DNA from: Chloroflexota bacterium
GTDB lineage: Bacteria; Chloroflexota; Dehalococcoidia; UBA2247; RBG-13-53-26
NCBI GenBank assembly: GCA_026389585.1
Contig: JAPLHP010000011.1
Location: 1-42,483 of the forward strand
Length of the DNA stretch: 42,483 nt
Direction of reading: 5' to 3'
The notes beneath the pieces were generated by a model, which was not told where the DNA came from, ran no database searches, and saw only the letters and a program-made list of their open reading frames with translations. Shown here one piece after another: positions 11,554 to 14,521 of the stretch. Both the position numbers and the translations under genes were made by a program. Numbering within the stretch: position 1 is the stretch's first letter; every line of letters begins with the position of its first letter.

Positions 11554-11561
11554 TTCGTCTA
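11554..11561. repeat. Left 8-bp target-site duplication (TTCGTCTA)
   Basis: TTCGTCTA directly abuts the left terminal inverted repeat and recurs in direct orientation at 13606-13613 directly outside the right one. Eight bases is the duplication size usual for the IS1595 family, so it marks the insertion point of the element. Confidence 0.85.
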
Positions 11562-11586
11562 CGCCATTATCCCTTGACATTTCGTA
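11562..11586 (+). repeat. Left terminal inverted repeat of the transposon
   Basis: Starts CGCCATTATCCC and ends TTTCGTA. It matches the reverse complement of 13581-13605 at 24 of 25 positions. It contains the TTGACA -35 box of the passenger-gene promoter. Confidence 0.85.
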
Positions 11587-11601
11587 GGGGTGTGGTATAA
11601 T
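11574..11601 (+). promoter_or_regulatory. Sigma-70-type promoter for the transposon passenger genes
   Basis: TTGACA at 11574-11579 and TATAAT at 11596-11601 are perfect consensus boxes with a 16-bp spacer. The -35 lies inside the terminal repeat and the -10 just inside the element. An ATG overlapping the -10 (11600) cannot be the start of the protease, so the start is placed at 11675. Confidence 0.8.
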
Positions 11602-11674
11602 GCTAAGTACATATGTCGAACGAAGGTTGGGGAATACTGTCATATACTATCTTTCCCAAAGGAGTGACGCTAAC

Positions 11675-12562
11675 ATGCGTGTTCCTGATGAAGTTAGACA
11701 GTGTGTTGTATTTGTAGGTTTGCCAGTTTCTCAACCTAATGGACAGGTAGCCTTATCATTTAAGGGAACTGCCTTTTTTGTTGCAGTTCCCTCGGCTGTG
11801 ATTCCGGGGAACAGTTATATGTGCCTAGTAACGGCTAAACATGTGGCTGTTGCACTTGAGGGTAAACCATTCCTAGTCCGAGTCAATACAAAAGATGGAG
11901 GTTCACAGTTAATAAGAGGCGAGGGGGCAAAATGGTGGTATCATCCCATTGACTCATCTGTGGATGTTGCTGTTATCCCTTGGGTGCCCCCTGAACAGGT
12001 TGAATACATTCCAATCCCAGATACCATGTTCCTTTCCGATGAAATAATTCGGAGCAAGGGTATTGGAACTGGGGACGAAGTTTTTATCACAGGGCTTTTT
12101 GCGTATCTCGCTGGGTCTTCAAGGAATCAACCAATAATACGTATGGGGAATATTGCAATGATGCCGGGCGAGCCAGTTGTAACCAAGGAATTTGGCAATA
12201 TTGAGGCATATTTGATTGAAGCTAGGTCTATTGGTGGGTTAAGTGGGTCGCCAGCATTTGTTAGAGAGACAAGTCCGTTCGGCAGGGTCGGCGCCTTTTA
12301 TTTCCTCGGATTGATGCATGGGCACTGGGATATCCCACCTGAGTCCAAGAATGACCAGTTAGTAATGGACAGTGACAAAAATGGTCAGGTAAATATAGGT
12401 ATAGCCATTGTGATACCGGCGAAGAAAATTCTGGAGGTTCTTAATCAGCCAGCTTTGGTTCAAGCGAGAAAACAGAACGATGAAAACTGGCAAAAGCAAC
12501 ACACGCCAACTCTGGATGACCAAATTAAGTTGTCGGAGCAAAAAGAAGAAACACCAAAGTAG
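11675..12562 (+). CDS. Trypsin-like serine protease domain protein, transposon passenger
   Basis: This 295-residue protein shows the three signatures of a chymotrypsin-fold peptidase in the right order: His56 in LVTAKHV, Asp97 in SVDVAVIPW and Ser190 in GGLSGSPAF (family GDSGGP; the glycine after the nucleophile pair is replaced by serine). No signal peptide or membrane segment is visible, so a cytoplasmic role is likely. The tail (about 265-295) is charged and glutamine-rich. The ATG at 11675 is preceded by AAAGGAGTG and lies about 75 bp after the -10 box; the frame is open further upstream but that would overlap the promoter. It lies inside the transposon and is followed 29 bp later by a small gene. 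Its job is unknown; host takeover, defence or simple cargo are all possible. Confidence 0.8.
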   Translation: MRVPDEVRQCVVFVGLPVSQPNGQVALSFKGTAFFVAVPSAVIPGNSYMCLVTAKHVAVALEGKPFLVRVNTKDGGSQLIRGEGAKWWYHPIDSSVDVAVIPWVPPEQVEYIPIPDTMFLSDEIIRSKGIGTGDEVFITGLFAYLAGSSRNQPIIRMGNIAMMPGEPVVTKEFGNIEAYLIEARSIGGLSGSPAFVRETSPFGRVGAFYFLGLMHGHWDIPPESKNDQLVMDSDKNGQVNIGIAIVIPAKKILEVLNQPALVQARKQNDENWQKQHTPTLDDQIKLSEQKEETPK

Positions 12563-12591
12563 CTTTCTTATCACACTAATGGAGGGCGCTA

Positions 12592-12783
12592 ATGGCCAAG
12601 CATCCTTTGATGAAGCAACCCCTAACTAAGAAGCGGTTTGAAAGTCTCCTAAAGAAGGCTGCTCAACCTGTTTCAGAGTGGCAACACGCTCCAAAAGAGA
12701 CAGGAATAGTGGAGTCTCGTCCTTCCGATGATTGTAGCGGTAAACGTAAGAGTCGAGGTAAGACTGAAGATAAAGAGGGCTGA
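12592..12783 (+). CDS. Small hypothetical protein, transposon passenger
   Basis: A 63-residue basic protein. GGAGGG lies 5 nt before the ATG, and it starts 29 bp after the protease stop, which argues for an operon. The first half (KKRFESLLKKAAQPVSE) looks like a small helical domain; the second half is charged and low in complexity. Its last 158 bases are antisense to the 3' end of the transposase gene, so the C-terminal part may be only a by-product of that overlap. I do not recognise a family. It could be a partner or inhibitor of the protease, by position only. Confidence 0.5.
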   Translation: MAKHPLMKQPLTKKRFESLLKKAAQPVSEWQHAPKETGIVESRPSDDCSGKRKSRGKTEDKEG

Positions 12784-13534
12784 CCGAGTGATTAACGCCA
12801 CTGATACCACGCTTGATGTTACTCCAGAGCGATTCAATAGTGTTGACGTGGGCAGTCCCATTAACATACTGTTTGGCAGCATGTTGAACTATTTCATGGG
12901 CATATCCCAATCTTTCGATATGATTGTAGCTGGCAAGTTCATCCGTAAAGATAACTGTCTTGCCCTCTCTGGCAATCCTAGCTTCAATCATGGGCAGCAA
13001 TGTTCGGGCTTGAACATTGGGAACTACCTTGGTGATTGCATTTCCGTCACGCTCCACCATGCCCATGACAATCGCCTTGCCAGATGCACCACGGCCACGC
13101 TTACCTGGTTTTCTACCACCAAAATAGGACTCGTCAACTTCAACCTGTCCAGTAAGCGGATTAACATTCTCGGACATGAGTTTGCGAATCTGATTGAATA
13201 TACGCCATGCTGTTTTGTAGGTGACACCCAGTTCCCTCTGAAGTTGTTTGGCAGAGATCCCCGTCTTAGTAGAGGACATTAGGAAGATAGCATGGAACCA
13301 AGAGCAGAGAGGCGTATCGGATTTGTGGAAGATAGTCCCCGCAGTCGGAGAGATACCCCTACCACAAAACTCACAGGCGTAGAATTTTCCTCCAGACCTC
13401 TTGTAGTGTTTAGTTACCTTCACGCATTTATCGCAATAAACGCCATTTGGAAAGCGAAGTTTGAAAAGGAAATCAAGACAAGCATCATCATTCGGGAATT
13501 GTTCATTAAAGTTTTTTGTAGTATAGGTTTTCAT
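12626..13534 (-). CDS. IS1595-family transposase
   Basis: A 302-residue transposase with the family's N-terminal zinc ribbon (CDKC and, 15 residues on, CEFC) followed by a DDE-type catalytic core. Acidic candidates sit in VEVDESYFGG, VIFTDELASYNH and the final NTIESLWSNIKRG block, which is typical of IS1595/ISXO2-like enzymes. GGAG lies 7 nt before the ATG. Its promoter overlaps the right terminal repeat. Length and motifs look intact, so the element may still be mobile. Its 3' end overlaps the small passenger gene on the other strand. Confidence 0.93.
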   Translation of the reverse strand: MKTYTTKNFNEQFPNDDACLDFLFKLRFPNGVYCDKCVKVTKHYKRSGGKFYACEFCGRGISPTAGTIFHKSDTPLCSWFHAIFLMSSTKTGISAKQLQRELGVTYKTAWRIFNQIRKLMSENVNPLTGQVEVDESYFGGRKPGKRGRGASGKAIVMGMVERDGNAITKVVPNVQARTLLPMIEARIAREGKTVIFTDELASYNHIERLGYAHEIVQHAAKQYVNGTAHVNTIESLWSNIKRGISGVNHSVSPLYLQSYLDSYVYRYNHRKDETPLFLSLLERVATLKQVEQPSLGDFQTAS

Positions 13535-13564
13535 CTCTTTTCTCCAATCTCATCTTATACCTAC

Positions 13565-13593
13565 ACTATAGCATAAACAATACGAAATGTCAA
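13565..13593 (-). promoter_or_regulatory. Promoter of the transposase gene
   Basis: On the minus strand TTGACA (13588-13593) is followed, after 17 bp, by TATAGT (13565-13570). As on the left side, the -35 is part of the terminal inverted repeat and the -10 lies just inside the element. Confidence 0.7.
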
Positions 13594-13605
13594 GGGATAA
13601 TTGCG
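13581..13605 (-). repeat. Right terminal inverted repeat of the transposon
   Basis: The reverse complement matches 11562-11586 at 24 of 25 positions (A instead of C at the fourth base). It abuts the second copy of TTCGTCTA. Confidence 0.85.
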
Positions 13606-13613
13606 TTCGTCTA
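13606..13613. repeat. Right 8-bp target-site duplication (TTCGTCTA)
   Basis: Direct repeat of 11554-11561, lying immediately outside the right terminal repeat. The match ends exactly after eight bases on both sides. Confidence 0.85.
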
Positions 13614-13878
13614 TGAAAGCACGGTAGATTTGATCAATGGATTCTGTTGGCACATCTGCCCGAATACTTACAGTAGAAACAAAGCCATCTTTCCTCATGT
13701 CCTGTGGCGTGTTGTTACGTGGAATGGGAAAGACATATTGATCTCCTCCGAGGTCTCTGGCATAGGGGAGATCACTCCTATAGAGGAATAACTTGGTTCT
13801 GGTCGTATCCATGGCAATAACATCAATCAGTAATTGTTCACCATAAGTCAAAGACCATGACTTCCTATATGGTGGCAC
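13606..13878 (-). pseudogene. 5' part of a hypothetical gene split by the transposon
   Basis: From the GTG at 13876-13878 the minus-strand frame reads MPPYRKSWSLTYG and continues to FIDE, then enters the transposon end and stops inside it. Joined to 11506-11553 it would give a 106-residue protein. Features such as PYARDLGGDQYVFPIPR and IRADVPTES look like real protein, but I do not recognise a family. The true 5' end is uncertain: the frame is open back to a TGA inside the 3' end of the PAS gene without another good start, so the gene may itself have lost its beginning. Confidence 0.55.
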
Positions 13879-13930
13879 ATTATCGTGGGTTCCTTGTAGT
13901 GCTACCGGAAGGATGTTGGTTAAGTCTGGG

Positions 13931-14521
13931 TTAGATTGAGAGTGAGGTAAGATGGATGAATTCCGTAAATGTCCTGGTGTTCATATCCTTCTCTGAATAG
14001 CCCGTGAACTCCACGGCTTTGGGGTTAGCAAACTTCAGCATCCCATCCTGTACCACAACGACGGCTTCATCGGAGTTTTGCATCAGCAAGTGCCTCTCCT
14101 CTTCTGATGCCTGCAGCCTCGTCTCCGCCAGCTTCTGGGCGGTGATATCCCTGACGGAAATCAAGCCGGCGAGCCTTCCCTGATACTCTATTCTCACACC
14201 AAGGGCGCTGAGCCATATCTCCCTGCCGTCCCTGGTTATGGCCCTGAGTTCCATGACCCGCCGCATGTTCTTCTGGAACATATCTTCGGCTATCATCCTG
14301 GCTACCCGGTCTCTGTCTTCTGTGGGGATGTGGTTCAGTGGATTCAGGCCGATCATCTCCGTCGGGAACGTAAACCCGAAGATCTTGGCCATAGCTTGGT
14401 TGGCCAGTACCACCCTCCCCGTCTCAGCATCGATAACCTCCAAACCATCAAGGGTGGCCTCGAAAATGACTCTATACAGAAGCTCGCTATCCCTCTCTGC
14501 TATTTCCTTGTGTACTATCAT
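13931..14521 (-). CDS. PAS-domain sensor fragment, output domain missing
   Basis: A 196-residue protein with a complete N-terminal PAS/PAC unit (about 12-130: DGLEVIDAETGRVVLANQ ... GLISVRDITAQ), a short helical linker (QKLAETRLQASEEER) and a second PAS domain that begins at about 145 and breaks off after KDMNTRTFTEFIH. The last residues (LTSLSI) do not look like PAS, where a PxDR motif would be expected. No histidine kinase, GGDEF or other output domain follows, so it is probably the front part of a sensor kinase or cyclase cut by a rearrangement near 13965. The start is the ATG at 14521 with a weak GAGGG upstream. It lies in a decayed region beside the split gene and a truncated transporter. 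Confidence 0.7.
   Translation of the reverse strand: MIVHKEIAERDSELLYRVIFEATLDGLEVIDAETGRVVLANQAMAKIFGFTFPTEMIGLNPLNHIPTEDRDRVARMIAEDMFQKNMRRVMELRAITRDGREIWLSALGVRIEYQGRLAGLISVRDITAQKLAETRLQASEEERHLLMQNSDEAVVVVQDGMLKFANPKAVEFTGYSEKDMNTRTFTEFIHLTSLSI

Follow-up and report, generated by a model that had tools for sequence, protein, structure and literature searches.

Here, we report that positions 11562-13605 of a 42,483-nucleotide stretch of Chloroflexota DNA (the window) are a complete passenger-carrying IS1595-family transposon (a "tIS"). The element belongs to a clade whose cargo slot is interchangeable, and in the window this slot is filled by a PDC-S45-type trypsin-like protease. Genes that simple transposons carry as passengers are mostly regarded as accidental cargo; this clade combines a fixed cargo slot, many alternative fillings (several of them defence-like) and a short tail recurring on unrelated cargos, and raises the question of whether a small transposon couples its cargo to its transposase physically. 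Taken jointly, the boundaries of the element, the identity of its cargo, the swapping of cargos and the clade-specific, protein-level tail are very probably right as described below.

The transposon and its insertion site

The element is intact, precisely inserted and 2044 bp long, and it contains only a protease gene, a small open reading frame (ORF) and a transposase gene. Its left (cargo-side) terminal inverted repeat, CGCCATTATCCCTTGACATTTCGTA (11562..11586, plus strand), is complementary at 24 of 25 positions to the right (transposase-side) repeat (13581..13605, minus strand; 25 bp, 1 mismatch), and the two ends are flanked by copies of a target-site duplication, TTCGTCTA, that agree at all 8 positions (11554..11561 and 13606..13613). 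The initial annotation had proposed a transposon with such ends and a perfect 8-bp duplication; both are confirmed, and removing the element restores an open frame. Joined in silico, the flanks give a minus-strand frame that ends in DQIYRAFIDETGEFKVQPIGRQHYD and a stop codon, the main part of the interrupted ORF lying at 13614..13932. No matching empty site was found in family relatives of the source genome, because the interrupted ORF itself was not found there. Nor does the protease stand at the same place without transposase or repeats: all nine family relatives lack it altogether (9/9), and the ends of related elements lie outside the cargo rather than within it. The G+C content is about 45% inside the element vs 55-60% to its left. 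The element is present as a single copy in its genome, and the exact terminal-repeat pattern had no match among the genome contigs searched.

The transposase gene (12626..13534, minus strand) encodes a 302-residue DDE transposase with an N-terminal zinc ribbon. It matches Pfam DDE_Tnp_IS1595 (PF12762, 9e-41, above cut-off), Pfam Zn_ribbon_IS1595 (PF12760, 3.6e-8) and NCBIfam IS1595 (NF033547, 3.9e-63, above cut-off). The DDE domain, inverted ends of about 25 bp and 8-bp duplication are those of the IS1595 family, and a gene without a part in transposition, the protease, lies inside the ends of this single-transposase element, as in other tIS. The earlier proposal of an IS1595-family transposon with a protease passenger is thus supported by the transposase domains, the ends, the duplication and the position of the protease.

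An interchangeable cargo slot

The clade can be delimited by transposase relatedness, ends of the form GGnnnTTATCCCtTGACA..AGTA, 8-bp duplications and one conserved layout, in which cargo is encoded on one strand and a convergent transposase on the other, with their 3' ends meeting. Exact 8-bp duplications were found in about 40 related elements, and the core TTATCCC of the window left repeat is common to about 50. The transposases are 37-59% identical, and the elements hold different cargo. By Pfam, the cargos include type I-like N6 methyltransferases (L042, L043), an N6/N4 methyltransferase (L102), a D12 methyltransferase (L107), DUF3800 proteins (L091, L104), a PAPS-reductase-like protein (L089), a DUF6941 protein with a HicB-like one (L057), DUF4145 (L067), P63C (L125), an IrrE-like protein (L130), NYN proteins and a second, unrelated Trypsin_2 protease (L146, element positions 1160-1942, 7.8e-18); membrane proteins and others also occur. 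A further cargo, L117, was at one point read from its N-terminus as a caspase-like protein; this reading was dropped, as the full sequence reads by eye as a type I restriction-modification (R-M)-like methyltransferase.

On a maximum-likelihood tree of the transposases (88 rows), carriage of the protease of the window family needs at least 7 changes, and its clustering is not above that of shuffled labels. The sampled transposases closest to that of the window (L082, L083 and L153 on the tree, with L042 next by identity) come from elements that are not protease carriers in the sequence recovered. That the clade was recently mobile is shown by three identical 1925-bp copies in one genome of the same phylum (L058-L060), which have three different 8-bp duplications and carry as cargo a membrane protein with the tail fused to it. 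As a separate observation, one reading frame of the left terminal repeat encodes GNYP in L010, L064, L065, L067 and L069, and in L010 and L064 the cargo frame is open through the left repeat into the flanking DNA.

The protease and its relatives

The cargo gene of the window element (11675..12562, plus strand) is preceded by a good ribosome-binding site, AAAGGAG, and encodes a trypsin-like serine protease of 295 residues. The triad His56-Asp97-Ser190, which the initial annotation had given for its serine protease, is intact and identical in all 14 aligned protease sequences. The protein matches the PADLOC model PDC-S45 (3.1e-14) over residues 30-255 against profile positions 38-279 of 293, and this match over most of the profile length assigns it to that family. 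To our knowledge, PDC-S45 is a candidate phage-defence family (single gene) in which function has been shown for no member. Searched alone, the window protease has no Pfam match, while its relatives match Pfam Trypsin_2, and a sequence search of the PDB returned nothing meaningful. An AlphaFold2 model built from four homologues (pLDDT 72, pTM 0.74) matches the protease domain of DegS/HtrA and other trypsin-like proteases (Foldseek E 2e-8), and places Ser, His and Asp in the right order on a predicted chymotrypsin fold.

An alternative protease start at 11600, with an in-frame leader, was ruled out, since a -10 box overlaps 11600 and a strong ribosome site precedes 11675. The leader that it would give (RRLGNTVIYYL...) resembles an in-frame leader (RRIGGSVSYLL...) of a phage-contig homologue (L011, below), a likeness that suggests conserved leader coding or sequence.

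A protease passenger is general in this clade and not a one-off. PDC-S45-type proteases lie inside seven other elements with related transposases, on unrelated contigs, making eight elements with that of the window. One of these, L010, came from a scan of viral contigs (IMG/VR contigs being automatic predictions, some of which may be host DNA) and has a protease and a convergent IS1595 transposase between perfect ends, GGTAATTATCCCTTGACAGTAGGTA, with the duplication ATATATAT. L064 is in a genome of the same phylum as the window (its protease is also L005), L046 is a further protease-carrying element of the clade, and L112, L144, L148 and L158 were found with a protease-family profile in a wider transposase scan. 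Each of them has ends with an 8-bp duplication, apart from L158, whose ends match and whose duplication is unclear. The triad is intact in the proteases of all eight elements and PDC-S45 is the best PADLOC match of every transposon protease (1e-19 to 3e-7), those of L158 and L010 also matching LmuA weakly (5e-6 and 1e-4). Identities to the window protease are only 27-46%, so one function for all element proteases is an assumption; the divergent proteases, once aligned, were too diverse to yield patterns. Two observations concern the neighbours of these proteases. In L064, an NYN-domain gene lies beside the protease on the opposite strand (element positions 1165-1899) and could be a nuclease partner, and in L010 a terminator-like hairpin is followed by an extra 55-residue ORF with its own ribosome site (element positions 1136-1303), placed between the genes for the tailed protease and the transposase.

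The family also occurs outside transposons, where PDC-S45 is again the best PADLOC match of the phage and plasmid homologues. One homologue (L011, 3318-4337) has HNH and terminase-like genes on either side in a tailed-phage contig (gene names by eye), and a distant one (L079) is on an Acetobacter plasmid beside R-M genes, its neighbours being a methyltransferase, a YeeB-type helicase and a GIY-YIG nuclease. No IS1595 transposase was found near either of these two. Further homologues outside transposons are in other genomes (L006-L009), and a second genome scan returned no relatives.

In light of these contexts, what might the protease do? A defence role is plausible from the PDC-S45 match and the distant plasmid homologue beside R-M genes. 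Based on PDC-S45 membership, the one R-M neighbourhood and the presence of trypsin-like proteases in the Hachiman, Avs and Lamassu systems (PMC12799240), we tentatively predict, at a little under an even chance, that the protease, taken to be cytosolic, has an anti-phage or anti-element role. A serious competitor, which could well be correct and which we rate short of an even chance, is that it is an HtrA-type housekeeping or stress protease picked up by chance and without a defence role. Its fold is closest to DegS/HtrA, and the L146 element shows that an unrelated Trypsin_2 protease can also be carried. However, the same protease family has been taken up repeatedly by different transposase lineages, the defence-candidate model is matched in all members tested, the distant plasmid member adjoins three genes of the kind listed above, and no obvious signal peptide is seen by eye in the window ORF, in contrast to periplasmic HtrA proteins.

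A tail shared by unrelated cargos

The small ORF between the protease and the transposase (12592..12783, plus strand; 63 residues) has a ribosome-binding site, GGAGG, before its ATG. The initial annotation had taken it for a small gene with its own ribosome site, and both ORF and site are present; from 12626 on, however, it overlaps the transposase gene on the opposite strand. The conserved C-terminus of the transposase is mirrored in the second half of the small ORF, which is antisense to conserved transposase codons and should not be taken as protein conserved in its own right; this rules out a wholly independent gene. What the ORF carries is a motif, T-[KR]-x-x-F-x-x-L-L-x-K-A, found in most elements of the clade on the strand opposite the transposase 3' end. 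Its core in the window, LTKKRFESLLKKAAQP (12622..12669, plus strand), scores 37.6 with a matrix trained without the protease elements. Where present, the tail takes one of two forms. It is a stand-alone small ORF in the window, L056, L089, L092, L104, L107 and others, and a fusion at the cargo C-terminus in L010, L042, L043, L046, L058, L064, L112, L117, L144, L148, L158 and others.

As the first instances had been read by eye, including those used for training, the motif was tested statistically, with 52 further loci that had not been read beforehand. In six-frame translations searched with leave-one-out matrices, the top match fell where it should in 28 of the 39 elements vs 2.5 expected, and three of the 11 misses are the same motif fused farther from the transposase. 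Column-shuffled matrices gave expected-place matches in 1-11 of the 39. At the 52 unread loci the motif was in the expected place in 34 vs 3.9 expected. Binomial tails are about 1e-25, in tests that ignore relatedness among the loci. At IS1595 loci outside the clade, the motif occurs at the level of chance (2 of 27 vs 2.0 expected). All eight transposon proteases have the tail, which is fused in seven and split off as the small ORF in the window; with the matrix trained without protease elements, the best tail score of the seven fused proteases falls within 13 residues of the C-terminus (those of L046 and L158 scoring weakly), and the tail is absent from all six free proteases. The 63-residue ORF, searched against phages and plasmids, had no match.

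The motif is short, and part of the small-ORF sequence is constrained by the opposite strand where it overlaps the transposase 3' end. Could the tail, then, be no functional protein but the side effect of DNA conserved where the 3' ends converge, such as a bidirectional terminator or the constraint on the transposase C-terminus read antisense? In most elements the phase of the motif is fixed relative to the transposase, within tens of bases of its stop, and many small ORFs, like that of the window, mirror the conserved C-terminus of the transposase in their second half. We nevertheless consider this quite unlikely. The motif is separated from the end of the transposase gene by about 990 bases in L064, about 300 in L117 and about 200 in L010, always in frame with the cargo, and it occurs only at chance level in IS1595 loci outside the clade. 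Among 54 non-redundant instances, information per codon position 1/2/3 is 0.46/0.70/0.16 bits, with Phe in 52/54 and Leu in 47/54; the first and second positions are conserved and the third is free, which is conservation at the protein level.

With a tail that could bring cargo and transposase together, and a protease encoded in the element itself, the protease might instead act on the transposition machinery, for example by cleaving the transposase. This is very unlikely: unrelated proteins fill the slot in most elements, which means that the clade needs no protease to transpose, and homologues occur in the phage and plasmid contigs with no IS1595 transposase nearby. About as unlikely is the earlier view of the protease and the 63-residue gene as a functional pair (for example inhibitor/activator or toxin-antitoxin like), mobilised by the transposase and always travelling together. 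The two window genes are adjacent, on the same strand and each with its own ribosome-binding site. However, the motif goes with many unrelated cargos across the clade, is often fused to the cargo C-terminus (in seven of the eight protease elements) and is lacking in proteases outside transposons, and a large part of the small ORF overlaps the transposase gene in antisense. The 63-residue gene is the stand-alone form of the clade tail and not a partner of the protease.

A working model of the element

Both ends of the window element carry promoter-like sites. On the plus strand, a TTGACA-16-TATAAT site with a TG before the second hexamer (11574..11601; 12/12 consensus positions) has its first hexamer inside the left repeat and reads into the protease. 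On the minus strand, a TTGACA-17-TATAGT site (13565..13593; 11/12 consensus positions) has its first hexamer inside the right repeat and reads into the transposase. The candidate left promoter would drive the protease and then the tail, and its mirror in the right repeat would drive the transposase. By binding the element ends, the transposase would cover the two -35 boxes, could dampen both promoters and might in this way couple them. Across 52 elements, TTGACA is present in the right (transposase-side) repeat of 33 and in the left (cargo-side) repeat of only 8, where the -35-like hexamer is mostly degenerate; the window element has it in both.

In the reading that we prefer, the protease would cut a phage- or invader-related target, to the benefit of the host or of the element. 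The tail probably serves the element and not the cargo, because it is what the clade shares besides its ends and transposase and because it goes with the element, whatever the cargo. Contact with the transposase, or control over its use, would be the likeliest means, a role that we advance with low confidence. We are similarly doubtful of, but find worth stating, the idea that the clade tags its passengers, with the T[KR]xxFxxLLxKA peptide probably a site at which the transposase or a shared host factor docks. If tagging were true, cargo including the protease would be coupled physically or regulatorily to the transposase, and a simple bacterial transposon would have a general cargo-adapter system.

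The combination of transposase, ends and tail makes a cheap handle with which to search uncultured bacteria and phages for candidate defence genes. In addition, PDC-S45 gains transposon and phage contexts, and these support its having a part in the conflicts of mobile elements with their hosts.

Comparison with known systems

The window protease and DegS/HtrA have in common a chymotrypsin fold (predicted for the window protein) and a Ser-His-Asp triad, with TM values of about 0.5 by query and 0.7 by target. They differ in sequence (16% identity), and the window protein has no identified PDZ domain.

Trypsin-like proteases are part of bacterial immunity in Hachiman, Avs/AVAST and Lamassu, where the protease forms a fusion with a defence enzyme and has an MBL-fold nuclease upstream as its partner (PMC12799240). 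The window element differs in having neither an MBL-fold nuclease upstream nor a fusion to a defence enzyme. A nuclease-protease pair of the Hachiman/Avs type was rejected for it, as a nuclease partner was sought inside the element and is absent; the NYN-domain gene beside the L064 protease is not an MBL nuclease. PDC-S45 has also been described in a Sinorhizobium prophage (PMC12429752), whereas the members in the elements described here are transposon cargo bearing the tail.

In the open literature, Siguier 2009 and ISfinder aside, we found no protease passenger or shared C-terminal tail in IS1595 elements, and the novelty of both is provisional. Passenger-carrying IS1595 members (tIS) are known, namely the lincomycin resistance element tISCpe8 and the mobilisable MTnSag1/tISSag10 (PMC5704250). 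These and the window element have alike an IS1595 transposase, inverted ends of about 25 bp, a target duplication and an internal passenger. The window element differs from tISCpe8 and MTnSag1 in carrying a protease that belongs to a candidate defence family, and in that unrelated cargos of its clade share a C-terminal tail.
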